Below, piece after piece: positions 16,001-37,475 of a DNA stretch of 37,475 nt (within the stretch, counting starts at the first letter, position 1; each line of letters starts with the position of its first letter). The DNA comes from Alphaproteobacteria bacterium (GTDB lineage Bacteria; Pseudomonadota; Alphaproteobacteria; Caedimonadales; UBA9215), in contig JAJSAD010000025.1 in NCBI GenBank assembly GCA_024281375.1, positions 1-37,475 on the forward strand, read 5' to 3'. The position numbers and the translations under genes were made by a program. The notes below the pieces were generated by a model that made no database searches, was not told where the DNA came from, and saw only the letters and a program-made list of their open reading frames with translations.

Positions 16001-16035
16001 TTTATTCATTTATAACATGAATGAGATATCTAAGA
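16001..16035. repeat. 35-nt dispersed repeat, copy 1
   Basis: Matches 27541-27575 at 34 of 35 positions in the same orientation (one A/C difference at the eighth base). Core TTTATAACATGAATGAGATA. Both copies are intergenic. Confidence 0.8.
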
Positions 16036-19742: not shown

Positions 19743-20579
19743 ATGGAAACAAAACCGCATAACCTTATTGTTGGTATTTTTGTCCTTGCCTTAATAACGC
19801 TGGGGACTCTTTTTGTTGTCTGGTTTTCAAAGCTTGAACTCGGAGAATCTCATAATCTGTATTATATCTATTTTGATGGGGCCGTCACGGGCTTGCGTGA
19901 GAACGAAGATGTCCTCTATCAGGGTATAGCCGTTGGGAAGGTCAAAAGAATTAGAGTTTACAAAAGTGATGTCCAGCGCATCAAAGTTCTTGTCAACATT
20001 AACCGCCCAGATATTATCCGCGAAAATAGCGTTGCAACTGTTGAGGCCCAAGGCTTAACAGGCTACACATTTGTCCAAATCAAAGGCAGCACTCAAGACA
20101 GTCCTATTTTAAAAGCTGCTGAGGGACATAAGCACCCCATTATTCGCTCACGCCCCTCTAATTTAGAATCTCTTTTTTCCAATGCCCCAAAGATTTTAGA
20201 GGGTATTTCTAAAGTTGCCCTGCAACTCCAAAAGTTTTTTGACGATAAAATGATTGCGGATTCTAAAGCAACGTTTAAAAATTTAAATATGATTACGAAA
20301 GATTTATCTGAGGGAACGAGCTCCTTAGCGCTCTTTTTGACTGATTTTAGATCAACACTCGAAGATTTCAAAAGTGCCTCCGCCTCTTTTAATCGCGTCC
20401 TAGTGGAAAATGAAGCTGCATTTTCTACCTTTACACGAACAGGTTTTCCCGCTTTTACAAAGATGTCCCAGAGTCTCCAAAGAACAGCAGACCATGTTGA
20501 TAAAATCGTGAAAGAAATAGAAACAAGCCCCACCGCCTTTTTACATAAAAATAGTAATCAAGGATATCAGGTAGAATGA
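19743..20579 (+). CDS. MlaD-like MCE-domain substrate-binding protein
   Basis: A 278-residue protein with one N-terminal membrane helix (LIVGIFVLALITLGTLFVVWF, about residues 8-28) followed by one MCE domain (about 40-115; GAVTGLRENEDVLYQGIAVGKV and GLTGYTFVQIKGS). The C-terminal half is a long, likely helical or coiled-coil segment. MCE proteins form rings in the periplasm that bind and pass lipids. It directly follows the ATPase gene (no gap) and overlaps the lipoprotein gene by 4 nt. Confidence 0.92.
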   Translation: METKPHNLIVGIFVLALITLGTLFVVWFSKLELGESHNLYYIYFDGAVTGLRENEDVLYQGIAVGKVKRIRVYKSDVQRIKVLVNINRPDIIRENSVATVEAQGLTGYTFVQIKGSTQDSPILKAAEGHKHPIIRSRPSNLESLFSNAPKILEGISKVALQLQKFFDDKMIADSKATFKNLNMITKDLSEGTSSLALFLTDFRSTLEDFKSASASFNRVLVENEAAFSTFTRTGFPAFTKMSQSLQRTADHVDKIVKEIETSPTAFLHKNSNQGYQVE

Positions 20580-21178
20580 TCCATTTCCTCAAAATATTAT
20601 CTCTCATTCCCTTTTTCTTTTTAGGGGCTTGCGTGTCTTTATTGCCAGAACCTGGTAAAGCCCCAAAGCGTATCTGGCTCAACCCTGCCATGACGACTTC
20701 TCCCTTGCGCCAAGCTAATACTCAAACCATAGCTATCACAAGACCCACAACGACTCATATGCTAGATTCCGAGCGCCTTCAAGTTCGGAATTTAAAAGGG
20801 GCTCTCCCCCTCATCGATCAAATAGCAAATGTAGAATGGCAAGACCACCTTCCCTTAATCGTTCAGCGCCATTTGGTGCAAAGTCTCACACATTCTAAGA
20901 AATTCAAAGCCGTTGGGTTTGACGAAGATTCCTTCAAGCCTGATGTCGTTTTAGAAACAGATATCCAAAGCTTTGATGTGGTGATTTTAAAAGATAAAAT
21001 TTATGCTGAAGTGACTTTATCAACCAAACTTCTTGATGCGAAAGGTCGCTGTGTGAGGTGGCAAAAGACAATATCTTCCAATGCCCCCATTGCTGAGCAT
21101 ACCCTCCTTGCTTTTGTAGAGGGATTAACCAAAGCCTATGAAAATGTCCTGTATCAAATCACCCAGGAAGTTAATTAA
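20576..21178 (+). CDS. ABC-type transport auxiliary lipoprotein
   Basis: A 200-residue protein with a lipoprotein signal (FFFLGACVSLLP; lipidated Cys at about residue 19). The mature domain resembles the ABC_trans_aux/PqiC family: ERLQVRNLKGALPLIDQIANVEWQDHLPLIVQRHL and DVVLETDIQSFDV. Such lipoproteins accompany MCE transporters and are thought to sit in the outer membrane. It overlaps the MCE gene by 4 nt and its 3' end overlaps the convergent MFS gene by 8 nt. The overlap region contains an A/T-only inverted repeat (21184-21204). Confidence 0.85.
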   Translation: MIHFLKILSLIPFFFLGACVSLLPEPGKAPKRIWLNPAMTTSPLRQANTQTIAITRPTTTHMLDSERLQVRNLKGALPLIDQIANVEWQDHLPLIVQRHLVQSLTHSKKFKAVGFDEDSFKPDVVLETDIQSFDVVILKDKIYAEVTLSTKLLDAKGRCVRWQKTISSNAPIAEHTLLAFVEGLTKAYENVLYQITQEVN

Positions 21179-22427
21179 TCTTTTTCTTTTTTAAGAAAAA
21201 AGAAGCAAAAACACAAAGCCCGATGACCACTAGTAAGGAACTGAGAGCAAAAATAAATTCTGGGGTGCTGTATAGTCTAAGGCCCTCTGCACTCAAGGCA
21301 CCAAGCCATTGCCAATCAAGGCCAAAGCCAATAAGCTGCTGCAATAAAGCACCACCAAGCATATTCAATGTATTAACCACTCCCAGGGTGAGACCTGATG
21401 TTTGAGGTGTTGTATAATTCACGGCTCCTGTGAAACACATCATCTCCCCCCCACAAAAAAATCCAAGGGCTAGCAATAAAAGCGTTACACCCCAAATACC
21501 TATTACAGGGCCATAAAGAACAACCCCCATCAAAATGAAAAGAGCGATACCACACAATTGAATCCCCTGATTAAGGTGATTTCGTTTCTCAAAAAACCAC
21601 GGCATAAAGAGGCTTCCAAGGGCCATTCCCAAATACATCATGGTACTTGTTTGCGCGGCATCTCCTCGGACAAGACCATATTTTTGCATTAAAAAAGCTG
21701 TCCCCCAAAGATCGGCTAAGGCTGACAAAGGCGTATAAAGACCAATAGCTAAAAGGGTATAAAGCATCACCATAGGGTTTTGGAGAATATCCTTGAGGCG
21801 CTCGCCAAACTCCCCCCAAGTCCGTTTTAATAAGGCTGAGGATTTTTGTTGAGCCGGTAGTAAAAAGACAGACATCAACAAAAGTGGGGTGCCCAGAAAA
21901 GCTGAAAAAGAAACCGTCTCCCGCCATCCAATCTCTTCTAATAACATCACAAGGGGTTTACCGGCTGTTAACGCCCCAATGGTTCCAAAGGAAAGGGTCA
22001 GACCCATGAGCAACCCGCGCTTTCCGGCTGGAAAATAATCGGCTGCTATCTTAAGGGCGCACATAAAAGCTGTTGCCGATCCTATGCCAACCAAAAGACG
22101 GCTCAATTGGGCCATAGGTAAGGAAACGCTGTGGGCGAATAAAAAAGTTCCGCCAATACAAAGGCCGATAGACCCTAAAATCATACGACGAATCCCAACA
22201 CGATCAACAAGGGCTCCCAAAGGAATTTGAAGAAGGGAATAGCCATAAAGATAATAAGCCCCAAAGGTTGAAAATTCTTCGGCCGTCAGCCCAAATTGCA
22301 ACCGTAGATCATCAATCATCACTCCAGGGGCAACCCTCAAGAGATACTGGTAAAAGAAAAAAAGCGCACAGGTAAACCAGGCAAGATAAGCCCTTTTAAG
22401 AGTAATGGTTTTTTTTTGATCAGACAT
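21171..22427 (-). CDS. MFS transporter
   Basis: A 418-residue major facilitator with about 12 membrane helices. Loop 2-3 has the MFS motif A-like GALVDRVGIRRMILG, and helices 4-5 contain GIGSATAFMCALKIAADYFP and GKRGLLMGLTLSFGTIGALTAGKP. The C-terminus is basic (KKKKIN). Substrate is unknown. Related carriers in host-associated alphaproteobacteria move amino acids, osmolytes or metabolites. It converges with the Mla-type cluster. Upstream there is a 741-nt gap. Confidence 0.85.
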   Translation of the reverse strand: MSDQKKTITLKRAYLAWFTCALFFFYQYLLRVAPGVMIDDLRLQFGLTAEEFSTFGAYYLYGYSLLQIPLGALVDRVGIRRMILGSIGLCIGGTFLFAHSVSLPMAQLSRLLVGIGSATAFMCALKIAADYFPAGKRGLLMGLTLSFGTIGALTAGKPLVMLLEEIGWRETVSFSAFLGTPLLLMSVFLLPAQQKSSALLKRTWGEFGERLKDILQNPMVMLYTLLAIGLYTPLSALADLWGTAFLMQKYGLVRGDAAQTSTMMYLGMALGSLFMPWFFEKRNHLNQGIQLCGIALFILMGVVLYGPVIGIWGVTLLLLALGFFCGGEMMCFTGAVNYTTPQTSGLTLGVVNTLNMLGGALLQQLIGFGLDWQWLGALSAEGLRLYSTPEFIFALSSLLVVIGLCVFASFFLKKKKIN

Positions 22428-22697
22428 ATAGTCCTCTAAAAAGATGATATCTGCCTAGTGTAGTCAAAAACCAAAAATTTGTATAGAAGCCTGAGACAAG
22501 AAAAATAACTATCCCCCCCTCCCCTCTTAAGTTTCCAAAAATAAGAGGTTCCAAAAACAAGGAACAGGAAAGGGCTCATCCCTATTTTGTACTTAAAAAA
22601 GAAGGTTTTGTGAAAGAAAAAATCATACTATGTATTCCTATTCAGTTTCGACGTGTGGGTTTTAAAACCAGACCAGAGCTGCCAGAGCGTATACTTT

Positions 22698-22760
22698 ATA
22701 CGTGAGGACAGCGATGTATCGCCGTTTTGAAAGGCCACAGTTTGAAAGAGGATGGGTATA
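22698..22760. repeat. 63-nt dispersed repeat, copy 1
   Basis: Matches 29707-29769 at 59 of 63 positions, same orientation. The core from CGCCGTTTTGAAAGGCCACA onward is identical for about 35 nt. TTATAC at the left end (22696-22701) and GTATAA at the right (22756-22761) are inverted. All three plus frames and one minus frame are partly open, so it is not evidently coding. Confidence 0.85.
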
Positions 22761-22797
22761 AGTCCAAATTGGCTATTATCATCAATATTAATATATT

Positions 22798-22826
22798 TTG
22801 ACAGGCATAAAATCAATATTTATTTT
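22798..22826 (+). promoter_or_regulatory. Promoter candidate downstream of repeat copy 1
   Basis: A perfect TTGACA (22798-22803) and TATTTT (22821-22826) with a 17-nt spacer. A transcript would carry a leader of about 340 nt into the BI-1 gene. Confidence 0.4.
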
Positions 22827-23115
22827 AGTCATTTCCAAAAAAAGTCACTTTATTACTTAACAAATCTCCTTTTTCCCTTCTTTCTTTTTTTTCTCTCAAT
22901 GCTTTCTGCCTTCGTTTATGTCTATTTTCAAGGGGGATTACCTCTCTTCTTCAGTCCCGCCCTTCTTTTTTCCTCTTCTCTTCTTTCATCTTTCTCCCTT
23001 CCTATTTCCGTCAGCCTTATTTTGCCGATTTTTTTGACAAATAGTAAAAATATTGATCAAACATGTCTATTGGTCAAAAAATGTGTATGTGAGAGGAAGA
23101 GAACAACTTTGTATG

Positions 23116-23124
23116 TGCTATAAT
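23116..23124 (+). promoter_or_regulatory. Extended -10 promoter of the BI-1 gene
   Basis: TGCTATAAT is a perfect extended -10 (TGnTATAAT), about 45 nt before the ATG. No matching -35 is seen 16-18 nt upstream. Confidence 0.5.
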
Positions 23125-23168
23125 ATGAGTTATAGTCAGATTGGAATCAACTTTTTAAGGAGATAAAA

Positions 23169-23888
23169 ATGCGTCACGAGTATGATGAAGCCATCCGGAC
23201 AGGATCACAAAGCCGTCAAGGCGATAAGGATATGGGCCTCCGGGCCTATATGCTGAAAATTTATAATTATATGGCTTTAGGCCTTGGTATTACAGGAGTT
23301 ATTGCCTATTTCGTTGCGGGTAGCGAGCAACTTCTTATGGCTATTATGGGGAATCAAATCCTCTTTTGGGGGTTGATCATTGCGCAATTTGGAGCCGTAA
23401 TTTTCTTGGTGACCCGCGTCACAAAGATGTCAACCAAAGCCGCTCAGCTCACCTTTTGGGGGTATGCGGCACTAACAGGTTTGACCCTTTCAGGTATTTT
23501 TGCGGCTTATACTTCTGAGAGCTTGGCCCGCGTGTTCTTTATTACGGCAGGTACTTTTGGCGCCATGAGCCTGTATGGCTACACAACCAAGCGTGATTTA
23601 ACAGGTATGGGGTCTTTCCTGAGGATGGGATTGATTGGATTAATTATTGCTTCTGTTGTGAATATATTTATGCAAAATTCAGCCCTAATGTTCCTCACCT
23701 CTGTGATTGGTGTGTTGATTTTCGTAGGTCTGACTGCCTATGATACGCAAAAATTAAAGCATATGTACTATCAAATTGGTCAGTCTGAACTCGCTGAAAA
23801 TTATGCCGTCGTTGGGGCGCTGACATTATATTTAGACTTTATCAACTTGTTCCTCTTTCTACTGCGTTTTATGGGCGACCGTCGATAG
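23169..23888 (+). CDS. Bax inhibitor-1 (BI-1/YccA) family membrane protein
   Basis: A 239-residue integral membrane protein with about seven helices, resembling the BI-1/TMBIM family. Characteristic are the N-terminal cytoplasmic segment GLRAYMLKIYNYMALGLGITG, the YAALTGLTLSGIFAAYTSES segment, the conserved VGLTAYDTQKLK, and the C-terminal ALTLYLDFINLFLFLLRFMGDRR. In bacteria such proteins act as pH-gated calcium leak channels or modulators of the FtsH protease; the role here is not established. A strong AAGGAGA site lies 8 nt before the ATG. Confidence 0.94.
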   Translation: MRHEYDEAIRTGSQSRQGDKDMGLRAYMLKIYNYMALGLGITGVIAYFVAGSEQLLMAIMGNQILFWGLIIAQFGAVIFLVTRVTKMSTKAAQLTFWGYAALTGLTLSGIFAAYTSESLARVFFITAGTFGAMSLYGYTTKRDLTGMGSFLRMGLIGLIIASVVNIFMQNSALMFLTSVIGVLIFVGLTAYDTQKLKHMYYQIGQSELAENYAVVGALTLYLDFINLFLFLLRFMGDRR

Positions 23889-23920
23889 CTCATGATAGAA
23901 TCGCTTCAAAAACCTCCCAG

Positions 23921-24010
23921 ATGCCATCAGACCTTCCTATTGAGAAAGTAGCTAAAAGAATGAAATCTTCTTTCGATCTAGGGGGGCTTATTGAAGAGTA
24001 TAAAAAATAG
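23921..24010 (+). CDS. Possible 29-residue small ORF
   Basis: A short frame reads MPSDLPIEKVAKRMKSSFD and continues LGGLIEEYKK, an amphipathic, charged composition more protein-like than random AT-rich sequence. There is no ribosome binding site, and another 19-codon frame overlaps it. It lies between the BI-1 gene and the convergent mgtE end. It could be a remnant of a lost gene. I recognise no family. Confidence 0.2.
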   Translation: MPSDLPIEKVAKRMKSSFDLGGLIEEYKK

Positions 24011-24021
24011 GAAGGGCTACA

Positions 24022-25464
24022 TTACAACAAAAACAAGGTGGCGAGACCCAAGAAAAGAGCATAGCCAAAAACATCAGTGGTTGTCGTTAGGATAGGGCCC
24101 GCACTAATAGCGGGATCAAGGCCAAAACGACTCACAACGATGGGCAAGAGGGTTCCCGCAAAGGCAGCCCATAACATATTACAGATCAAAGAGACCGATA
24201 AAATAATCCCAAGGCCCACACTATCAACCCAAAGGCCTGCTATTCCCCCCAATACTAATGCACAAAAAGAGCCCGCTAAAAGGCTGACGCCCAATTCTTT
24301 TCGCACCGCGCGCCAAGTATCTTCTTCTAAGAGGCTGCGGGTCGCTAAAGCCCGCACCACAACGGTAACCACTTGCATTCCAGAATTTCCTCCCATCGCC
24401 GCATTGATGGTCATCAAAAAAGAAAGCGCTGTAATTTGCTGAATGGAGGCTTCAAACTGCGAAATCACATAGGAGGCAATCAACGTATTCACGAGGGTAA
24501 TAAGCAGCCACCTCGTGCGCCAATAGGCCGTTGTTGAAACGGGGGCATAGAAATCTGATTCCCCATGGACTTTATGCATGTGCAAGATGTCTTCTTCGGC
24601 TTCTTCTTCCAGCACATCCACCACATCATCCACGGTCACCATCCCAATGATACGACCACTGCTGCTGGTAATAGGGGCTGAAACAAGGGCATAGTGCTTA
24701 AAAGCTTGCGCGACTTCTTCTTGGTCAGATATATCAGGAAAACTATGAATATCTTCAATCATCACATCTGACACAAGGGTCTTAGGGTCCTGACGCACCA
24801 ACTGGTTCAGGGGAATTTTTCCCATAAGGTGATGGCGGGGATTAACGACAAAAACATCGTAGAACAAAGAGGGCAAATCTTTTTGTTCCCGAATAAAATC
24901 TGAGACTTCTTGGATGGTCCAATGGGGCGGGACACAGACAATCTCCCGCTGCATCAAGCGCCCTGCACTTTTATCAGGATATTGCAATACCCGCTCGAAA
25001 ATTGAGCGTTCTCCTGCGGGGATACGTTGCAGAATAGTGTGAATGAGCTCTTCATCCATTGTCTCGAGAAGACTCAGGGCATCATCACTATCCAGGTGCA
25101 AAATCACCCTAGAAATCTGATCAAGATTTAAAAGATTTATAAGATCCAACCGCAAAGCAGGATCAACATCTACAAGGGTTTCAGGGTCAAGTTGCTCTTT
25201 AATGAGTTGAAAAAAGGGCTCACGATAACGGGCTTTTAAATGATTAATTAAGTCCGCAATATCAGCGGCATGAAGAGGCTCTAATAACTCAAGCACAGCC
25301 GCGGCATTATGATGATCAAGGTTATCTTCAATAGCATCTCGCAACTCAGCAGACACCCCAAAACGAACCCCATCAGCTGATTCATTTAGAGGAGCAATAT
25401 CATCGGGAGATAGGCTAACATCCTCTTTCAAATCGTTCTTATTGTTCCCTGTCTTTTTTGCCAT
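24022..25464 (-). CDS. mgtE: MgtE-type magnesium transporter
   Basis: A 480-residue Mg2+ channel/transporter. The cytoplasmic MgtE_N domain (about residues 35-140; LLEPLHAADIADLINHLK, DPALRLDLINLL, AGRLMQREIVCVP) is followed by a CBS pair (about 145-270; ISSSGRIIGMVTVDDVVDVLEEEAEED) and the C-terminal membrane domain with about five helices, including the conserved AAMGGNSGMQ pore region and AGPILTTTTDVFGY. The N-terminal codons (MAKKTGNNKN) lie in the first unit of a 31-bp tandem repeat. The ribosome binding site is weak (AGGGA about 12 nt upstream). It converges on the BI-1 gene. Confidence 0.94.
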   Translation of the reverse strand: MAKKTGNNKNDLKEDVSLSPDDIAPLNESADGVRFGVSAELRDAIEDNLDHHNAAAVLELLEPLHAADIADLINHLKARYREPFFQLIKEQLDPETLVDVDPALRLDLINLLNLDQISRVILHLDSDDALSLLETMDEELIHTILQRIPAGERSIFERVLQYPDKSAGRLMQREIVCVPPHWTIQEVSDFIREQKDLPSLFYDVFVVNPRHHLMGKIPLNQLVRQDPKTLVSDVMIEDIHSFPDISDQEEVAQAFKHYALVSAPITSSSGRIIGMVTVDDVVDVLEEEAEEDILHMHKVHGESDFYAPVSTTAYWRTRWLLITLVNTLIASYVISQFEASIQQITALSFLMTINAAMGGNSGMQVVTVVVRALATRSLLEEDTWRAVRKELGVSLLAGSFCALVLGGIAGLWVDSVGLGIILSVSLICNMLWAAFAGTLLPIVVSRFGLDPAISAGPILTTTTDVFGYALFLGLATLFLL

Positions 25465-25554
25465 CTGTTTTATTATTCCCTACCTTCCTTACCACCTATT
25501 TTATTGTTCCCTGCCTTTTTTACCACCTATTTTATTGTTCCCTGCCTCTTTTAG
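25439..25554. repeat. 31-bp tandem repeat across the mgtE start
   Basis: TTCCCT recurs at 25445, 25476, 25507 and 25538, an exact 31-bp period. Units 3 and 4 are nearly identical, units 1 and 2 diverged. Unit 1 includes the mgtE ATG and first codons. In the upstream units the corresponding triplet is GTG or absent. Because 31 is not a multiple of 3, each unit is in a different frame. Confidence 0.9.
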
Positions 25555-25646
25555 CTATGAAGCTTGATAAAGCTGGGGAATTCTCCTAAAAAAGATGTGG
25601 TTTAAAAGTAGAATATTCTCATAATTGAAGAAGGATAAATTTTGCG

Positions 25647-25721
25647 ATGAAACAATCAAGAGACACAGACGCTCAGATCATGGGGATTTTACTAGAAACA
25701 GGATGCAGGAGAGAGGGATAA
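25647..25721 (+). pseudogene. IS3-family transposase OrfA N-terminal remnant
   Basis: The frame reads MKQSRDTDAQIMGILLETG and stops five residues later. It resembles the N-terminus of IS3-group OrfA proteins (MKxSRFTxxQIxxILKE), which begin a helix-turn-helix domain. AAGGA precedes the ATG by about 12 nt. Nothing further of the element is recognised, so only a 24-codon relic remains between mgtE and the tRNA gene. Confidence 0.45.
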
Positions 25722-25797
25722 AATTCCATAAACCCTTTTGCGGCCTTTCTATAATTTATAAGGGAGTTTTTTTGATTAAGAAGCTTTCTGAGAACCA

Positions 25798-25826
25798 TTG
25801 ACATTTTAGCTAATAGTCGTTATTTC
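25798..25826 (+). promoter_or_regulatory. tRNA-Ser promoter
   Basis: TTGACA (25798-25803), a 17-nt spacer, and TATTTC (25821-25826) lie about 19 nt before the tRNA 5' end. Confidence 0.55.
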
Positions 25827-25844
25827 TAGGGGTAATCTTCGTGC

Positions 25845-25934
25845 GGAGAGGTGGCCGAGTGGCTGAAGGCGCACGCTTGGAAAGCGTGTATGCGGGCAAC
25901 CGTATCGCGGGTTCGAATCCCGCTCTCTCCGCCA
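25845..25934 (+). tRNA. tRNA-Ser (anticodon GGA)
   Basis: A 90-nt class II tRNA. The acceptor GGAGAGG pairs with TCTCTCC, followed by G and an encoded CCA. The anticodon stem CACGC/GCGTG encloses TTGGAAA with anticodon GGA, which reads UCC and UCU. A long variable arm (TATGCGGGCAACCGTA) and the T arm GCGGG-TTCGAAT-CCCGC are complete. The downstream glycosyltransferase begins 62 nt later. Confidence 0.97.
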
Positions 25935-25996
25935 TTTTATCTCCTGAGTGGTGCCGCCAGTTAGGGGGAGTCAGGGAATCAATCTTAAGGTCTCAT

Positions 25997-26935
25997 ATGT
26001 CTTATTCGACTATTCTTGTTTATGTTGGGGGTGATCTTGTGGGGGATGGCCTTATTAAACTTCCCTTTATTTATAACCTCAGACAAAATAACCCTAATGC
26101 AAAAATTGTTTGGTGCTATGGCGAATTTGATAGTGTTTTTGAAAATCTTTTAGCTCCCTTGATTAAATCACAGATAGATGAAGTCGTCTCTTTAAAAAAT
26201 CTTTCTTCTCAAAATTTTGATTTGATTATTGATACCCAAAGTGAATGGCTGACGACTCTTAAGCTTAAAATGCAACTCACCTGTACATACTTTTTTTCAC
26301 CTACCCTTGGCTATTTTCTGTCGGATTTTAAACCCCCTAAAGGATACAAAGCTCCTAAACGCCTTATTGATAAAATGTTGGGTTTTCTTGATATTATAGG
26401 AATGGATATAAAAACATCCTATGTTCTTGATCTCGATCAGGAGTGGCAAGAGAAAGCAGCAGAACTTTTACCAGGTCACAAGAAATATATTGGTTTTGCT
26501 GTGGGGGCCGGCTATCGGGCAAAGTGCTGGCCTAGAAAAAGTTATCAGAGCCTTGCTCGACAGATCAAAAAAGAAGGATATAAGCCTGTTATTATTTTAG
26601 GTCCTCAAGAACAAGATTGGGTTACAGAGTTTCAACAGGAACTTCCCGACGCTCTTTATCCTTTACAAGATAAACGTGTTACCAAGCAGTCTCCTTTGTT
26701 GACTATTGCCCTTGCCCAGCGTTTTGAGGCGGCGGTGTCTAATGATTGTGGCGTTGGTCACATGGTTGCCGCAGCGAACACGCCTTTGTTGACACTTTTT
26801 GGTCCAACAACAGCGGATAAATTTGCCCCAAAAGTGCTTAAAGGATTGACGTTGCGGGCTCAGGACTTTGGGGGGAACACCATGGAGTCTATTCCCCAAC
26901 AGGCAGTCTTTGAGGAATTGAAAGAGTTACTTTGA
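25997..26935 (+). CDS. Glycosyltransferase family 9 (heptosyltransferase-like)
   Basis: A 312-residue GT9 protein related to ADP-heptose:LPS heptosyltransferases. The start ATG at 25997 has AAGG 6 nt upstream; the frame is open further upstream but would run through the tRNA. Visible features are the N-terminal Rossmann-like VYVGGDLVGDGLIKLPFIYNL, IGFAVGAGYRAKCWP in the middle and VSNDCGVGHMVAAANTPLLTLFGPT at the C-terminal donor site. The canonical G-D motif at the N-terminus is present as VGDGL. It probably adds a sugar to LPS core or another surface glycan. The 3' end overlaps the convergent dut by 9 nt. Confidence 0.85.
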   Translation: MSYSTILVYVGGDLVGDGLIKLPFIYNLRQNNPNAKIVWCYGEFDSVFENLLAPLIKSQIDEVVSLKNLSSQNFDLIIDTQSEWLTTLKLKMQLTCTYFFSPTLGYFLSDFKPPKGYKAPKRLIDKMLGFLDIIGMDIKTSYVLDLDQEWQEKAAELLPGHKKYIGFAVGAGYRAKCWPRKSYQSLARQIKKEGYKPVIILGPQEQDWVTEFQQELPDALYPLQDKRVTKQSPLLTIALAQRFEAAVSNDCGVGHMVAAANTPLLTLFGPTTADKFAPKVLKGLTLRAQDFGGNTMESIPQQAVFEELKELL

Positions 26936-27406
26936 GGAAAAAAGACCTGTAGAGCCAAAACCAGCGACACTCCGGGTGTTTTCTAGATCATTGTCCTGGA
27001 AATCGGAGACTTCTTGGAGGTGGGCTTGGACGTAAGGAGCAATGATCAATTGAGCAATGCGCATACTACGCTTAATCACAATATTTTCTTGGCCAAGGTT
27101 CATTAAAATCACTTTAATTTCTCCGCGATAGTCTGAATCAATGGTGCCAGGCGTATTGAGAACCGTCATTCCTTGTTTTAGAGCTAAGCCAGAACGGGGA
27201 CGAATTTGTGCTTCATAGCCTGGAGGAAGGGCTAAGGAAATACCACAAGGGATGAGGTGCCGCTCGCCTGGTTTTAAGATCACATGCCCCCTAATGGCTG
27301 CCATCAAATCCATGCCTGCACTGCCAGGTGTAGCATAAAAGGGGAGGTCCAGGTCAGCCCCGTGATCTAGTTTTTTAAGGGGGACATTGATAGTGTTTTT
27401 AGACAT
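26927..27406 (-). CDS. dut: Deoxyuridine 5'-triphosphate nucleotidohydrolase (dUTPase)
   Basis: The trimeric dUTPase hydrolyses dUTP to dUMP, supplying thymidylate synthesis and excluding uracil from DNA. The 159-residue protein shows all five family motifs in order: GSAGMDLMA, PRSGLALK, GTIDSDYRGEI, RIAQLII, and the C-terminal arm RSVAGFGSTG. Length is normal and the gene appears intact. Confidence 0.96.
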   Translation of the reverse strand: MSKNTINVPLKKLDHGADLDLPFYATPGSAGMDLMAAIRGHVILKPGERHLIPCGISLALPPGYEAQIRPRSGLALKQGMTVLNTPGTIDSDYRGEIKVILMNLGQENIVIKRSMRIAQLIIAPYVQAHLQEVSDFQDNDLENTRSVAGFGSTGLFSSK

Positions 27407-27540
27407 TCTAAACTCTTTATCACTTAAACTGAATACGCTTAAAATATCACATATTTAACCCTTTTGGAACGACTATAGGAAGCTCTTCAGAATACTTTTT
27501 TCTGGTTTTCAACCCTTGAAAAGCCCCATAAAATATAGAG

Positions 27541-27575
27541 TTTATTCCTTTATAACATGAATGAGATATCTAAGA
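27541..27575. repeat. 35-nt dispersed repeat, copy 2
   Basis: Second copy of the repeat at 16001-16035 (34 of 35 positions). It lies just downstream of the HU gene terminator, within the gap between HU and dut. Confidence 0.8.
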
Positions 27576-27596
27576 CCTTCCTATAGAACAATACAT

Positions 27597-27624
27597 AAAA
27601 AAACGAGCTTCCAAAGACACCCGT
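27597..27624 (-). terminator. Intrinsic terminator of the HU gene
   Basis: On the minus strand ACGGGTGTC pairs with GAAGCTCGT (two G-T pairs, one mismatch) across a TTTG loop and is followed by seven T (plus 27597-27603). Confidence 0.7.
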
Positions 27625-27675
27625 TCTCTTATGTAGTAATCCCCTTAAACACAAGGCGATAAAGCCAAATAAAAA

Positions 27676-27948
27676 CTAGTTTACAGCTTCTTTAAGGTCT
27701 TTACCGGCCTTAAAAGTTGGCACTTTAGAAGCAGCGATTTGAATCGGCGCCCCTGTTCTTGGATTACGACCTGTACGTGCAGCGCGCGCTGAAACTTTAA
27801 AAGTTCCAAAGCCAACAAGACGGACATCATTCCCTTTTTGTAAAGAGGATGTAATGTAAGTCAAAACACTTCCAAGTGCCGTTTCAGAGTCTTTCTTTGA
27901 AAAACCTGTGTCATTGGCAATTGCTGAAATTAAATCTGCTTTAGTCAT
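27676..27948 (-). CDS. HU-family DNA-binding protein
   Basis: A 90-residue histone-like protein that binds and bends DNA as a dimer. MTKADLISAIA at the start, VRLVGFGTF near residues 43-51, and the DNA-contacting arm RTGRNPRTGAPIQI with the tip Pro are typical of HU. The C-terminal FKAGKDLKEAVN is also standard. AAGGGAGA precedes the start by about 9 nt. A terminator lies 50 nt downstream. Confidence 0.95.
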   Translation of the reverse strand: MTKADLISAIANDTGFSKKDSETALGSVLTYITSSLQKGNDVRLVGFGTFKVSARAARTGRNPRTGAPIQIAASKVPTFKAGKDLKEAVN

Positions 27949-28122
27949 TTTTTATATTCTCCCTTATTGAATAAATTTATAGTAGCAGAAAAAAAACAAA
28001 GGTCACCGGTCTTTTTTTTAAATTCTAAATATTTTTTGTGTTTTCAGGATGTTGCCCCCTCCATCTCTATATTTTTTCATTATTTTTCAAGGTATTAAGA
28101 AAAACAAACACCCCCTAAAAAA

Positions 28123-28347
28123 TTAAATTTTATTGTGAGAACCATCGCATAAAGGCGGTTTTTGTGTCTTTTTACACCCACAAAAATACATCGTACCCGT
28201 CCTAGGCGCCGTCCACTTTAAGGAACGCTGTCCCCCTTGGTCTCGATGGGACCCATCACACAAAGGTTGTTTTTGAGACAAACCACAGGTGCACCATGCA
28301 TATACTTTTCCTTTTTCAACCTTCACGGCATAAGGGCTATCAAACAT
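28123..28347 (-). CDS. CDGSH iron-sulfur domain protein (tandem motifs)
   Basis: A 74-residue protein with two CDGSH-type [2Fe-2S] binding motifs, C-x-C-x(9)-CDGSH: WCTCGLSQKQPLCDGSH and FCGCKKTQKPPLCDGSH. Each supplies three Cys and one His ligand. Bacterial members are small cytoplasmic proteins thought to act in redox or iron-sulfur homeostasis. It is divergent from rnhA with 73 nt between the starts. Confidence 0.92.
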   Translation of the reverse strand: MFDSPYAVKVEKGKVYAWCTCGLSQKQPLCDGSHRDQGGQRSLKWTAPRTGTMYFCGCKKTQKPPLCDGSHNKI

Positions 28348-28420
28348 ATTTCTCTCTCGTTATTGTGTGCATGGCATTGTTCATGTAAAACTAAATCTAA
28401 CATAAAGAAAGAAAAAACCT

Positions 28421-28903
28421 ATGAATGAAATTCATATCTATACCGATGGGGCTTGCAGCGGAAATCCAGGGCCTTGCGGCTGGGGAGTCGTTATTCACCA
28501 AAAAGATTCTGATACACAAGAGCTCTTTGGCGGGGAAAATAATACCACTAATAACCGCATGGAAATGACAGCAACTCTGAAAGCTATTCACGCTATTCTA
28601 GAAATAGAGGGTGATGTCCATCTTCACACCGATAGTACTTATGTCAAAGATGGTATTACCTCTTGGGTGAAAAATTGGCAAAAAAATGGTTGGAAAACGG
28701 CCAACAATAAACCCGTTAAAAACAAAGACTTATGGCAAGAACTTATTTCCCTATGTGATAAAAGAAATGTTATGTGGCATTGGGTTAAAGGCCATGCCGG
28801 ACACCCTGATAATGAACGAGCTGATGTTTTGGCCCGCAATGGTGTCATGAAACAAATGATGCAAACTGCCCTTCAAGAAACCGCCAAGCAAAGTAAGGCC
28901 TAA
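28421..28903 (+). CDS. rnhA: Ribonuclease HI
   Basis: RNase HI cleaves RNA in RNA-DNA hybrids. The 160-residue protein has all catalytic carboxylates: Asp9 in YTDGACSGNPG, Glu48 in NNRMEM, Asp71 in HTDSTYV and Asp135 in NERADVLA, plus the KGHAGHP loop. It is followed after 3 nt by a class II aldolase gene, probably in one transcript. Confidence 0.96.
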   Translation: MNEIHIYTDGACSGNPGPCGWGVVIHQKDSDTQELFGGENNTTNNRMEMTATLKAIHAILEIEGDVHLHTDSTYVKDGITSWVKNWQKNGWKTANNKPVKNKDLWQELISLCDKRNVMWHWVKGHAGHPDNERADVLARNGVMKQMMQTALQETAKQSKA

Positions 28904-28906
28904 TAG

Positions 28907-29665
28907 ATGACATCTACAGCACTCCACGCCCTTGATCCAACCTCTTCTCCGGCAACACAGTTAAAGGAAAAGCTCGCGAAATGTTATTATTTACTCGCTC
29001 AAAAAGGGATGGATGATAGAACCTATACCCACTTATCAACACGCCTCCCCTGCGAAAATGCTTATTACATCTATCCTTTAGGACTTTTATTTGAAGAAGT
29101 AACACCCGACAAACTTATTAAGGTTGATTTTGATGGAAATATTATAGAAGGGGCCGAGACCCGTTTTAATAGGACAGGATATGTAATCCATAGCTCCGTT
29201 TATAAAGCGCGTCCAGAAATCAATGCCGTTTTCCACCTCCACACAACAGCAGGTGTTGCTGTGTCTTGCATGCGCCAGGGTCTTCTTCCCCTTTCTCAGT
29301 TCGCCCTCCATTTCCACAATCGCCTCACTACCCATGACTATAATGCCTTAAACCTTGACCTTGAGAGCCAAGGAGCACAACTCGTGAAGGATTTAGGCCC
29401 CACTCATAAAGCAATGCTCTTAAAAAACCATGGTACAATGACCTGTGGGAAAACTTCTGAAGAAGCTTTATTTTATATGCTTTTTTTAGAAGAAGCCTGT
29501 AAAGTACAGGTAGCTGCTCTTTCGGCTGGCTTTAATAATCTTTCTTTCCCATCAAAATCTATTTGTGAACAGGCCTATCAAGGAATGACAAATTTTGAAC
29601 AAAGTGAGATTGGCAAACGAGATTTTGATGCTCAGTGTCGCGTCATCACCTTTCCCTGGCATTAA
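28907..29665 (+). CDS. Class II aldolase/adducin family protein
   Basis: A 252-residue protein of the class II aldolase/adducin fold, zinc-dependent in enzymatic members. The expected ligands are visible in AVFHLHTTAG (HxH) and in LKNHGTMTCG. DDRTYTHLSTRLP and YYIYPLGLLFEEV match the family N-terminal region. Many alphaproteobacterial relatives are annotated only to family level. The substrate is not predictable. The ATG follows the rnhA stop by 3 nt. Confidence 0.88.
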   Translation: MTSTALHALDPTSSPATQLKEKLAKCYYLLAQKGMDDRTYTHLSTRLPCENAYYIYPLGLLFEEVTPDKLIKVDFDGNIIEGAETRFNRTGYVIHSSVYKARPEINAVFHLHTTAGVAVSCMRQGLLPLSQFALHFHNRLTTHDYNALNLDLESQGAQLVKDLGPTHKAMLLKNHGTMTCGKTSEEALFYMLFLEEACKVQVAALSAGFNNLSFPSKSICEQAYQGMTNFEQSEIGKRDFDAQCRVITFPWH

Positions 29666-29686
29666 AAATATTTCCAGCCCCTTATT

Positions 29687-29771
29687 TATATATCCAGCCT
29701 AAATTCATACGTGTGGACAGCGGTGTGTCGCCGTTTTGAAAGGCCACAGTTTGAAAGAGGATGGATATATA
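29687..29771. repeat. 63-nt dispersed repeat, copy 2, with inverted flanks
   Basis: Positions 29707-29769 match 22698-22760 (59 of 63). In this copy the element is enclosed by 13-nt inverted arms, 29687-29699 and 29759-29771, which match at 12 of 13 positions. Inside, TGTGG (29712-29716) can pair with CCACA (29744-29748). It ends 8 nt before the rpsT -35 box. Confidence 0.8.
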
Positions 29772-29779
29772 TTCAATTC

Positions 29780-29808
29780 TTGACGCTGGTCTTTAGGTGC
29801 GGTATAAG
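29780..29808 (+). promoter_or_regulatory. rpsT promoter
   Basis: TTGACG (29780-29785), a 17-nt spacer and TATAAG (29803-29808) form a near-consensus housekeeping promoter about 35 nt before the rpsT ATG. Confidence 0.75.
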
Positions 29809-29817
29809 ATATCCACA
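29809..29817 (+). promoter_or_regulatory. DnaA-box-like site at the rpsT start point
   Basis: ATATCCACA matches the DnaA box TTATCCACA at 8 of 9 positions and sits directly after the -10. It could let DnaA repress the rpsT-dnaA unit. Only this single site was noticed. Confidence 0.35.
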
Positions 29818-29843
29818 TCATTAAGTTTTAATTAGGATTACAC

Positions 29844-30107
29844 ATGGCAAATATTAAGTCTGCAGAAAAAAGAAACCGTCAAAATGTCAAGCGTTACGAG
29901 CGTAACCATGCACGGGTTTCACGTATTCGCACCTTTATCCGTCAGGTTGAAGAGGCTTTGACGGGAGGGGATAAGGCTGTTGCAGCTAACGCTCTTAAAG
30001 CGGCTCAACCTGAAATTCAACGGGGTGTTACAAAAGGGGTGATTCGCAAGAAGACAGCTTCCCGTAAAATTTCAAGACTTGCTGCCCGCGTAAAAGCACT
30101 GGCATAA
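29844..30107 (+). CDS. rpsT: 30S ribosomal protein S20
   Basis: S20 binds 16S rRNA early in small-subunit assembly. The 87-residue basic protein begins [20 protein letters not shown] and ends with the [22 protein letters not shown] helix, both typical. A near-consensus promoter lies upstream and an intrinsic terminator just downstream. The rpsT-dnaA order is common in alphaproteobacteria. Confidence 0.97.
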
Positions 30108-30124
30108 TTAAAAGAAATTATACT

Positions 30125-30170
30125 CTCTGGCGTTCTGCTTTTTTGTTGAACGCCCGAGCTGTTTTTTCTT
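30125..30170 (+). terminator. Intrinsic terminator between rpsT and dnaA
   Basis: CTCTGGCGTTC (30125-30135) pairs with GAACGCCCGAG (30148-30158), 10 of 11 positions, across a 12-nt loop. CTG and a T-rich run follow. It ends about 20 nt before the dnaA ATG. Confidence 0.8.
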
Positions 30171-30191
30171 TTTATAAACCATAAAGAAGAA

Positions 30192-31604
30192 ATGATGACA
30201 GCTCAAAAAGCTTATGACATTGATATACAGGAAAAGAAATCCGATGCATCATCGGATCAAAATTCTTTTCAAGAGCTTTGGAATTCTGTCAAATCTACTT
30301 TCCCTAAATTATTTGGCGAGGCAACTTATAAAAGTTGGCTGGCTCCCCTTGCTTTTAAAGAATTTGTGGGTGGTCGTTTTGTAATTGCGGCCCCAACGTC
30401 TTTTATGCGAGATTGGGTCGCAACTAATTCTAAAAAGAAAATCCTCGGCCTCTTACAAGACCTTCATCCCACGATTTTGGTGTTGGATGTTATCGTTGAT
30501 AAAGATTTAAAGATTGAGAAACAAGGCTCTTCTGGGACTGCTGTTTCCTCTCTTAATACATCCCTTGCAGATATTGAGGTTATTGGATCACGTCTTGAAC
30601 CGCGTTATGTCTTTGACAATTTTGTGGTGGGGCAGTCCAATGAGCTGGCCCATGCTGCGGCCCTTCGGGTGGCTGAATCGTCACAAGTGCATTTCAATCC
30701 TCTCTTTATTTATGGGGGGGTGGGTCTTGGAAAAACCCATTTAATGCATTCTATTGCGTGGCATATTAAAAAATGTCATCCAAAGCGTAAAGTTGTGTAT
30801 CTCTCTGCTGAAAAATTTATGTATCAGTTTATTAGGGCATTGCGTTTTAAGGACACCGTTTCTTTCAAGGAAAAATTCCGTTCCGTTGATGTGTTGATGA
30901 TTGATGACTTCCAGTTTATTAGTGGAAAAGAAGCCACCCAGGAAGAGTTCTTTCACACCTTTAATGCTCTGGTGGATCAAAACCATCAGGTAATTATTTC
31001 TGCGGATAAGTCCCCAACGGATTTGCCTGGTCTTGAGGAACGGATGCGGTCTCGTTTAGGGTGGGGGCTTGTGGCGGATATTCACCCCACGACCTACGAG
31101 CTTCGTTTAGGGATTTTACAATCAAAGACCGAGCAGTTAAAGGTGGATGTACCTGTTTCTGTTCTTGAGTTTCTAGCTCACAAGATTTCCTCGAATATCC
31201 GTGAACTCGAGGGGGCTTTAAATCGTATTGTGGCCCATTCAAGTTTGGTCGGTGGCATCATTACCATTGAATCAACTCAGCAGGTCTTGCGGGATGTGTT
31301 GCGTGCCAATGACCGCCGTGTCACTATCGAAGAAATTCAACGCAGAGTCGCTGAACATTATAATATTAAGACCTCTGATATGCATTCCGCCAAGCGTGTG
31401 CGGACCATTGCAAGACCTCGTCAAATTGCGATGTATCTTTCTAAAGCCTTAACGGAAGCCTCTTTGCCTGAAATTGGTCGGAAGTTCGGGGGGCGAGATC
31501 ATGCCACGGTGATGCATGCGGTTAAAAGGGTTACTGAGCTTATGTTGAATGATCGTGTTATCGGGGAGGATGTTGATCTTCTCAAAAAAATGCTGCAGTC
31601 TTAA
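30192..31604 (+). CDS. dnaA: Chromosomal replication initiator DnaA
   Basis: DnaA binds origin DNA and opens it for replication. The 470-residue protein has domain I (about 25-90; FQELWNSVKSTFPKLFGEATYKSWL), a short linker, the AAA+ domain with Walker A GGVGLGKTH (175-183) and Walker B VLMIDDFQF, and the C-terminal DNA-binding domain with the signature IGRKFGGRDHATVMHAVKRV (about 433-452). Two ATGs are adjacent at the start, preceded by AAAGAAGAA. The rpsT terminator lies immediately upstream, so expression requires read-through or a promoter inside rpsT. Confidence 0.97.
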   Translation: MMTAQKAYDIDIQEKKSDASSDQNSFQELWNSVKSTFPKLFGEATYKSWLAPLAFKEFVGGRFVIAAPTSFMRDWVATNSKKKILGLLQDLHPTILVLDVIVDKDLKIEKQGSSGTAVSSLNTSLADIEVIGSRLEPRYVFDNFVVGQSNELAHAAALRVAESSQVHFNPLFIYGGVGLGKTHLMHSIAWHIKKCHPKRKVVYLSAEKFMYQFIRALRFKDTVSFKEKFRSVDVLMIDDFQFISGKEATQEEFFHTFNALVDQNHQVIISADKSPTDLPGLEERMRSRLGWGLVADIHPTTYELRLGILQSKTEQLKVDVPVSVLEFLAHKISSNIRELEGALNRIVAHSSLVGGIITIESTQQVLRDVLRANDRRVTIEEIQRRVAEHYNIKTSDMHSAKRVRTIARPRQIAMYLSKALTEASLPEIGRKFGGRDHATVMHAVKRVTELMLNDRVIGEDVDLLKKMLQS

Positions 31605-31673
31605 AATTTCTCTCATTTTTTCAATCAGTGTTAGATCATTATATGCATATTGATTTGAGAGGATATTTGAAAA

Positions 31674-31697
31674 AAAACATCGAAAAAGAGGTGTTTT
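31674..31697 (+). terminator. Weak hairpin downstream of dnaA
   Basis: AAAACATC pairs with GGTGTTTT (one G-T pair) around an 8-nt loop, ending in TTTTCTT, about 70 nt after the dnaA stop. It is AT-rich and short on G-C pairs. Confidence 0.35.
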
Positions 31698-31753
31698 CTT
31701 AACGGGAAACTTTACCTATAGCACAGATAGCATGCAAAAAAAAAGCTTGTTTT

Positions 31754-35082: not shown

Positions 35083-35184
35083 TAGAGAATCAAGAGCGCC
35101 GCTCATACCATGGTAGGCGAGTTCCGCAGCACCTTGGGCGATGGCCTTAACGAGGGCATCCCGGGGGTCTTCCCCCAGGAGGCT
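35083..35184 (-). pseudogene. 34-codon remnant of a toxin paralogue
   Basis: On the minus strand this stretch reads SLLGEDPRDALVKAIAQGAA and continues ELAYHGMSGALDSL before a TAA. It matches residues 63-96 of the neighbouring toxin (37157-37258) at 28 of 34 residues, and at about 85 of 102 bases. A TAG lies directly upstream in the same frame, so it is not a gene but a truncated duplicate. It lies 24 nt past the stop codon of the candidate immunity gene. Confidence 0.9.
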
Positions 35185-35824: not shown

Positions 35825-37475
35825 TTATTCCGCCCAAGATCGTTGAGTTTTGTTCAAGGCTCGATGGCCTGATTTCAGGAGCTTACGTTCTTTTTGAATG
35901 ATTTTTACAAGTTTCTGTTGATACTGATCCTTCGTGTAATTATGTACCTTACCCTTATCAAATACTTCATTCATTTGGCGTTCCAGTTTCTGTTTGACCT
36001 CCTTCAAATGCCGTCCTTCATGGATGGAGCGTGTTGTTGACGATAGAGTAGCGCCTTCTTTTGTGGGCAATAACATTTTATTCAGACTCGTTTCAACATC
36101 CATATCGGCTTTTTCCCACAAAGGATGCCCCTTTAGTTTTTGATGAACCACATGATGCTTTTGAGTATACTCAACACCTCTAATTTTTCCAGCAGTATCT
36201 CGCTTGATTTTCATGTTGGAAGCATATTTGGTCCCGATTTTTTCTTTGCCTTTGCGGGAGGGTGCTGAGTCGTTTCCCCTGAATTCATTCAAAAATATAT
36301 CTGTTGAGGGGTCTCTGTCAAGGATTGGTGTGGAGAGGATTTTGGGGTCTGAGGCTCCTTCATGGGGGATGGGGCCTTGATCTCCTCGGGTTTCGACAAA
36401 GTCATCAGGGTGGGGGGTATAGCCCGGCAGAGCGCCTCGATCATGGGGATCAACTGCCGGAAAGCTTTCAACATTCCCAATACCTGTGTCAGCAGGACGA
36501 TCAAAGCCTTCCAGATGACCGCTAGAGCCCTCACCAGAATGCTTGATACTGCTCTCAATTTTCTTTTGAATCACAAGGCCCGTAATGACTGTGCCAAGAA
36601 GGGTCAACTCAGGCGCAAACGCAACAGCAGCTGCAATTACAGGAAGTACAACAGGCCGGACCCCAAGATTCTCTTGACGAAGTTTGAGAGCCGATGTTTC
36701 AAAATTCTTCGCTGTTAACACAAGGGACTTATTCCATGCGTCTTTGAGAGAGTCTCCCATTTCCCGAAGAGCTTTATAACTCGAAAGAAGGGATAATCTG
36801 AGGTCTTTCTTTAAAGTATCTAAAGCGTCATTAAGGTGCTTATATCGCACACCGAGCTCTTTTGCAATTTCTTTTCCAACTTCTTCAACCACATGCTCAA
36901 TACGATTCGCGAGCTCGGGAAGAGCGGTGCGAAAAAAACGATTCTCAAATTCCTGGCGATTATGGTTGTGGACGGGAGGCTTGTCATCACGGATGCCGTC
37001 GTCGTTACCACCATCCGTGCCTCTGTCGAGAATAGCATGGAGGGAGGCGGTGATGTCATCCATTGAGCGCCCCGGAACAGGGGCGGTTGAGGAGCCTTCG
37101 TCGTTTTTGAGAGTTTCAGGGTCCTCTTTTTCCCCTGTTTTATCGGTGAGGTCGTTCAGAGCATCGAAAGCGCCGCTGACACCGTGGTAGGCGAGTTCCG
37201 CTGCGCCTTGAGCGATGGCCTTAACCAGAGCATCCCGGGGCTTGTCCCCCAGAAGACTGTGGCTGGCGAAATGCCGCACCATGCCCGCCGTTGTGTGACC
37301 AATGATGCCTAAGGCAGCAGAAGTCTCTGTAGCTGGGCCTTTGCCTTTGGCACTTTTGGGAGCTTTGGAGGTTTTTGTTGAGGAATCCTTTGAGGAGGAA
37401 TCATCTGCCGGTCCTCCCAACGCACCATCCAGGGCCGTATCCAAAACCGTATTGACCGCCGCTGATTTAAGACCC
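35825..37475 (-). CDS. Polymorphic toxin, C-terminal part, with AHH nuclease domain
   Basis: The frame is open to the right edge (GLKSAAVNTVLDTALDGALG), so the gene is 5'-truncated; the TTG at 37444 is unlikely to be the true start. In order, counting from that TTG: a Ser/Lys/Thr-rich stretch (15-42), a segment also found as a remnant downstream (63-96), an acidic linker, a helical region (about 165-265), a hydrophobic stretch VLPVIAAAVAFAPELTLLGTVITGLV (about 275-300), a Pro/Gly/Asp-rich linker, and a C-terminal domain. The last has KHHVVHQKLKGHPLW (from 429), NKMLLPT and RSIHEGRHLKEV (about 473-484), the pattern of the AHH family of HNH/endonuclease VII-fold toxins. The secretion route is unknown; the start of the visible part is reminiscent of haemagglutinin/CdiA-type proteins. 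Confidence 0.75.
   Translation of the reverse strand, partial: GLKSAAVNTVLDTALDGALGGPADDSSSKDSSTKTSKAPKSAKGKGPATETSAALGIIGHTTAGMVRHFASHSLLGDKPRDALVKAIAQGAAELAYHGVSGAFDALNDLTDKTGEKEDPETLKNDEGSSTAPVPGRSMDDITASLHAILDRGTDGGNDDGIRDDKPPVHNHNRQEFENRFFRTALPELANRIEHVVEEVGKEIAKELGVRYKHLNDALDTLKKDLRLSLLSSYKALREMGDSLKDAWNKSLVLTAKNFETSALKLRQENLGVRPVVLPVIAAAVAFAPELTLLGTVITGLVIQKKIESSIKHSGEGSSGHLEGFDRPADTGIGNVESFPAVDPHDRGALPGYTPHPDDFVETRGDQGPIPHEGASDPKILSTPILDRDPSTDIFLNEFRGNDSAPSRKGKEKIGTKYASNMKIKRDTAGKIRGVEYTQKHHVVHQKLKGHPLWEKADMDVETSLNKMLLPTKEGATLSSTTRSIHEGRHLKEVKQKLERQMNEVFDKGKVHNYTKDQYQQKLVKIIQKERKLLKSGHRALNKTQRSWAE

Follow-up and report, generated by a model that had tools for sequence, protein, structure and literature searches.

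A family of ERIC-like palindromic elements between the genes of an alphaproteobacterium of the order Caedimonadales

Two copies of a palindromic element in the window

The window analysed here is a stretch of 37,475 nucleotides (contig C98) from the genome of an alphaproteobacterium of the order Caedimonadales (1,849,165 bases in 104 contigs, 97.6% complete). It holds two copies of a repeat that we call family A, both on the forward strand. Copy 1 (22633-22760) is found in the gap that separates two divergent genes, one for an MFS transporter and one of the Bax1-I family; copy 2 (29689-29769) has a class II aldolase-family gene on one side and rpsT, followed by dnaA, on the other. The preliminary description of this DNA had reported a 63-nt repeat at 22698-22760 with a second copy 7 kb away and 59 of 63 identical bases, and its sequence details on this repeat hold: the stretch recurs at 29707-29769 with 59/63 identities (blastn E value of 6e-23), and no third place in the window reaches 38/63 identity to it.

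Other copies in the same genome led to conserved sequence to the left of the 63-nt stretch, and copy 1 is a complete ERIC-like palindromic element of 128 nt that begins with TATTCC and ends with GGGTATA. It matches the copy at locus L003 (contig C12) at 94% over its full length, and the family-A covariance model R1 takes it in from end to end with 141 bits. The 128 nt make up an imperfect palindrome that is predicted to fold as a single hairpin along its entire length, with an energy of -47.1 kcal/mol; shuffled sequences averaged -28.0 (z -5.85), and none of 200 did as well. At the apex of the MFE structure is a hairpin, GCGTATACTTTATACGT (22687-22703, forward strand), followed by TGAG, a motif also present at related loci and common to the elements of families A and B, of Caedimonas, and of genomes G028, G029, and G249. 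Since the 63-nt stretch begins inside this apical hairpin, the preliminary description had one half of the longer element, the right half of copy 1. Its reading as a small mobile or palindromic element stands in that the element is small, mobile, palindromic, and strongly folded, and fails on the boundaries. Copy 2 is internally deleted, with most of its left half missing; the remaining ∼81 nt have the complementary ends TATATCC and GGATATA, retain the right half that gives the 59/63 match, and fold with -28.8 kcal/mol (z -3.67 for 29690-29775).

The 12-nt palindrome-like GCGATGTATCGC that had been singled out was located at 22711-22722, with one match, in copy 1 only; its counterpart in copy 2 is GCGGTGTGTCGC, and a 12-nt palindrome of this type was present in 7 of 100 shuffles too. 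As a key feature it was wrong or unneeded in the reading of the element. The TTGACA noted 37 nt past the repeat is indeed found, at 22798, where it belongs to a promoter-like TTGACA-17-TATTTT (22798-22826, forward strand; called from the letters alone) downstream of copy 1 and outside the element. Directly downstream of copy 2 is the rpsT promoter, TTGACG-17-TATAAG (29780-29808, forward strand). An alignment with contig C99 of G001, a genome of the same genus, shows conservation of this promoter but unrelated DNA upstream, in the place that copy 2 occupies here; the promoter is native to the gene. The proximity to promoters that had been emphasized is not a shared part of the repeat, since the rpsT promoter is conserved in G001, which has no element there.

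The window also contains a tandem 31-nt unit (TTATTGTTCCCTGCCTT...) at 25439-25547, upstream of tRNA-Ser, and a 101-nt direct repeat (84%) at 35084-35184 and 37158-37258, probably within coding sequence.

Copy number, covariation, and insertion at TA

Searches of the own genome, each scoring at most the best 40 candidates, returned at least 43 family A matches with an 86-nt query and at least 44 with either of two long forms. The end pattern, with one mismatch allowed, occurred 73 times forward and 81 times in reverse, versus 27 and 38 times for the reversed pattern. Sixty-two regions outside the window contig gave 71 matching stretches, 37 of them 120 to 160 nt long, with two regions lacking any. 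One of the 71 (L102:1155-1180) is a family B element, and the two window copies are added because contig C98 was outside the 62 regions, which brings family A to at least 72 stretches.

Almost all of these stretches are intergenic: 59 of the 60 copies of at least 28 nt lie outside open reading frames (ORFs) of at least 100 aa, the exception being L109, and such ORFs make up 76% of the DNA in the 62 regions. The genes beside the copies are arranged in tandem in 32 cases, convergently in 12, and divergently in 10, so that no one arrangement is consistent. Of 29 gene ends that lie no more than 20 nt from a copy, 20 are 3′ ends and 9 are not (binomial p 0.06), from which we claim no preference. 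The L003 copy had no match in plasmids and phages, the end pattern was not found in viral contigs, and family B and one Caedimonas stretch had no match in plasmids; a plasmid- or phage-borne element was rejected on these searches.

Most family A copies end in TATACC and GGTATA. They come in two forms, of ∼128 and ∼150 nt, with a common left arm and different right halves, and folding is weaker in the 150-nt form (z -1.34 for L028, equaled by 17 of 200 shuffles). Alignment A1 leaves out 4 of the 37 copies of 120 to 160 nt (L097:1430, L098, L106, and L118, with ends cut by blastn) and adds the window copy. Covariation was assessed in alignment A3, with 15 copies (13 type-I-like and the diverged L078:3983 from the own genome and one from G001). 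Ten of 45 pairs had changed on both sides with pairing kept, compared to a shuffled mean of 3.2 (0 of 500 shuffles) and to 0 to 3 for slid structures. The outcome that the preliminary description had named as fatal to its proposal, two copies only and no covariation, is therefore not what the genome holds, with 72 stretches and covariation above both controls. In the G001 copy L175, the apex of the hairpin is re-paired.

This covariation does not prove that the element functions as RNA, since copying of one arm onto the other could give such changes in one event. When the arms of the 49 stretches of at least 60 nt were typed, 28 had a left-type and a right-type arm, two had two left-type arms, three had two right-type arms, none had its arms exchanged, and 16 were untypeable at one or both ends. 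For the five same-arm stretches, the simplest reading would be that one arm was copied onto the other. Other copies look like products of decay or recombination: the 33-nt copies L060, L084, and L109 resemble deletions between AGTTT repeats, the 31-nt copies L067:2644 and L107 resemble deletions between TGGGT repeats, and L157, L062, L091, and L089 resemble chimeras of families A and B. Solo family A left ends occur at L078:1491, L086:1489, and L101:1493, each with [AG]TGACGGGTAGTGAA after it, which seems to belong to another repeat.

Family B, with at least 44 matches in the own genome, consists of 106-nt palindromes with the ends TATAGTC and GACTATA (for example, L102:1115-1220 and L149:1501-1606). 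Its arms vary in sequence yet remain complementary; over 20 copies, 9 of 32 pairs covary against a shuffled mean of 5.6 (9 of 500 shuffles), and the corresponding count of cells is 28 against 8.4 (0 of 500).

The two families are found inserted into each other. Locus L074 reads GGAGCG-TA-(B element, TAGCC...GGCTA)-TA-TACTTTATACG, and taking away the B insert and one TA gives GGAGCGTATACTTTATACG, the sequence of uninterrupted A copies; a 4-nt TATA duplication would fail to restore this form. Locus L085 is the reverse case, GACGACGAC-TA-(A element, TACC...GGATA)-TA-TACTTCATAG, and without the A insert it gives GACGACGACTATACTTCATAG, as in the B copy L145. In both nested cases, insertion took place at TA with duplication of TA. 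Four further pairs of A and B elements abut with only TA or TATA in common (C100:21005, C97:5226, C23:22182, and C11:78633). In L154 a B element is split by a third repeat, and in all three nested cases (L074, L085, and L154) the insertion point is within the apical hairpin or next to it. A 35-nt repeat of the window (97%, 16001-16035 and 27541-27575) also occurs inside this third repeat. The comparison with relatives that had been proposed gave no clean orthologous empty site: between window positions 20500-31700 and G001 and G002, synteny is broken round both copies, and the other copy 1 and copy 2 junctions lie on different contigs in those genomes, the rpsT upstream region being conserved to the promoter only.

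Relatives in other genomes and sequence link to ERIC

By blastn, family A matched in 4 of 57 genomes, the own genome, G001, G007 (a Caedimonas MAG of the same order), and G022 (same class). The family-A covariance model had matches in 7 of 93 genomes, namely the own genome, G001, G007, G019, G028, G029, and G033. Two of its matches, L173 in G033 and L178 in G001, had no closed ends on reading and were excluded from the argument, the former being scored at 5e-6 by the ERIC covariance model R2; the remaining ones have in common a stem-loop followed by TGAG. Scans with the ERIC model found matches in at least 3 of 289 genomes of Alphaproteobacteria (G119, G249, and G254). Phylum-wide, at least 31 of 398 genomes matched, and 30 of these are not Alphaproteobacteria. 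These scans scored 12 candidates per genome for the class and 8 for the phylum and returned no match in the own genome; since both missed it, the figures are lower bounds and absence means little. The matches L193 to L204 in G249, G254, and G119 are alphaproteobacterial elements near ERIC, with at least 10 in G249. A 65-nt palindrome with family A ends was also seen in G022 (L034, 1462-1526), an alphaproteobacterium outside this order.

The core of these elements resembles the ERIC primer sites. The ERIC core was present in 5375 of 5426 Escherichia coli genomes, from which L186 served as the reference copy. Three Caedimonas elements aligned pairwise to L186 with scores of 53.5, 50.5, and 42 (shuffle mean of 18, 0 of 300 shuffles as good), as did two G001 elements with 34 and 26.5 (0 of 300); of another two Caedimonas elements, one scored 26 (1 of 300) and the other 20 (76 of 300). 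The window copy scored 18, with 161 of 300 shuffles as good, and has no pairwise resemblance to ERIC. The elements of G028, G029, and G019 were likewise nonsignificant, their scores being reached in 25 to 149 of 300 shuffles, and none of the family B comparisons was significant.

Since pairwise resemblance is absent, the link between ERIC and the window copy runs via intermediates, and since palindromes can gain covariance-model score from pairing alone, we place the weight on sequence-only tests. A profile built on sequence alone from seven enterobacterial ERIC copies, run against 185 loci, found 19 stretches, 18 in Caedimonas and one in Brenneria (best Caedimonas E value of 9.6e-11, some Caedimonas loci overlapping), with none in reversed DNA, and did not reach family A among these loci. 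With Caedimonas sequences added to ERIC, the profile matched A copies, the window copy at 5e-4, again with none in reversed DNA. Profiles made without ERIC, from Caedimonas (22635-22760, 8e-4) or from Caedimonas and G001 (22634-22760, 3.8e-12), matched the window copy with no match in reversed DNA. A second bridge, from ERIC and the G249, G254, and G119 elements without Caedimonas, matched A copies with E values of 4e-4 to 7e-3 and gave 8e-3 for the window copy, improving to 1.6e-5 for the latter when Caedimonas was included; neither the 13 control loci nor reversed DNA yielded a match with these profiles. The ERIC covariance model R2 covered 22633-22761, the full length of the element, at 9.7e-4, with no control locus at E values up to 1, and the family-A model recovered 2 of 7 ERIC loci (8e-4 and 3e-3) and six B loci (1e-5 to 9e-3). 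On the profile comparisons, family A is homologous to ERIC through intermediates.

Comparison with known elements and origin of the family

In the literature (PMC2229807, PMC2759123, and PMC10969869), ERIC, also called IRU or RU-1, is described as an intergenic imperfect palindrome of ∼127 bp with TA ends and a TA duplication, present in dozens to hundreds of copies and having no autonomous gene; effects of ERIC on mRNA are reported for Yersinia. Family A shares this length in its 128-nt form, the palindrome over the whole length, the TA termini and TA duplication (nested L074 and L085), the intergenic location (59/60), and the apical hairpin with its GTGA core, along with sequence homology at the profile level. 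It differs in that its arms have diverged so far that pairwise similarity is lost, in having a second form of 150 nt as well as the sister family B, and in its alphaproteobacterial host, of the same order as the Caedimonas MAG. A 2024 review gives two families of Gammaproteobacteria, Enterobacteriaceae and Vibrionaceae, as the host range of ERIC; family A lies outside the two families named there, and we therefore call it ERIC-like and not strict ERIC.

Other small elements share some of these features; the literature covered here also comprises PMC2267715, PMC5896051, PMC3091717, and PMC7297999. Correia/NEMIS elements of Neisseria, compared by description, are 100 to 155 bp long with inverted terminal repeats, TA ends and duplication, and short and long forms. 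RUP of Streptococcus pneumoniae, a small MITE that targets TA and is likewise found inserted into other elements, has a candidate helper, IS630-Spn1, whereas none was found for family A. QMITE1 and QMITE2 of Coxiella burnetii likewise number ∼50 small MITE copies per genome in an intracellular bacterium but have direct repeats that vary in sequence and are not TA. YPAL, considered as the nearest relative, was rejected since its ends are without TA.

Taken with its homology to ERIC through intermediates, these features make it very probable that family A is a nonautonomous, TA-targeting MITE of the ERIC kind. Its members are short and noncoding, with inverted terminal repeats, a target duplication, and many dispersed copies; the arms changing together across copies is unusual for transposase-bound ends and counts against a MITE. 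On this reading, a gene-less imperfect palindrome of ∼128 (or ∼150) nt, able to form one long hairpin or cruciform, inserts at TA and duplicates it, and its TATACC and GGTATA ends would have been recognized in trans by an enzyme that spread the family. The enzyme would most likely have been of the TA-cutting IS630/Tc1-mariner type and may since have been lost. Insertions into genes would mostly have been removed, leaving copies between genes, and copies may form stable hairpins if transcribed, with possible effects on neighboring genes. Deletion between short direct repeats could account for the 31- and 33-nt remnants, A and B would have recombined in the apical motif common to both, and one arm may sometimes have been copied onto the other.

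A search confined to IS630-type transposases found none with matching ends in the own genome, a draft of 104 contigs, whose only DDE_3 gene (contig C27) has no such ends. Over the own genome and ten further ones, PF13358 occurred at 9 places, none with TATACC ends, and a parent insertion sequence among these places was rejected. At L120, the locus on contig C27, this IS630-type gene lies beside another transposase-like ORF; the contig looks foreign to the rest and is possibly assembly contamination.

It is unlikely that family A is a lineage-specific palindromic MITE without descent from ERIC, resembling it through the same class of transposase ends and the hairpin shape. The window copy and ERIC lack pairwise similarity, the ERIC-only profile misses family A, and the best profile matches that include ERIC span mainly the right half of A, as such an origin would have it. 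However, two separate sequence-only bridges, through Caedimonas and through G249, G254, and G119, join ERIC and family A with nothing in reversed DNA, the matches take in the apical core beyond the ends alone, the Caedimonas-only and Caedimonas and G001 profiles match the window copy over nearly its full length, and strand orientation is the same throughout.

We consider it highly improbable that the repeat is a multiplied structured regulatory RNA (a riboswitch, small RNA, or 3′ stabilizer) with mobility secondary or past. The strong fold (z -5.85), the covariation, and the 20 of 29 nearby gene ends that are 3′ ends (p 0.06) point that way, but the gene arrangement beside copies is inconsistent (32/12/10), and nested and chimeric copies and deletion remnants argue against it. 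A known RNA family for the element was rejected as well, the one Rfam match in the window being a tRNA. The comparison to Rickettsia palindromic elements made in the preliminary description finds some footing in the size of ∼150 bp, the palindrome, and the small alphaproteobacterial host genome. Those elements are known for in-frame insertion into genes, whereas 59 of 60 family A copies lie outside ORFs, and on this placement, not on sequence, we ruled them out as an identity that is scarcely credible.

A broader, tentative proposal is one that we hold to be possible though somewhat less than an even bet: ERIC may belong, as a single branch, to a superfamily of hairpin elements that target TA and span Alpha- and Gammaproteobacteria, with patchy horizontal transfer into small, probably intracellular genomes. 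Families A and B would then be two branches resident in one genome, each inserting into the apical hairpins of the other, with arms kept complementary by arm copying.

For decades ERIC has served as a standard target in typing, and we know of no transposase for it. Zo reportedly treated ERIC in Gammaproteobacteria in 2011, and we found no published report of ERIC homologues in Alphaproteobacteria in a search largely limited to literature outside subscription journals. The alphaproteobacterial relatives of ERIC, together with the nested insertions at TA, are new material for seeking the missing transposase and for tracing the history of the family.
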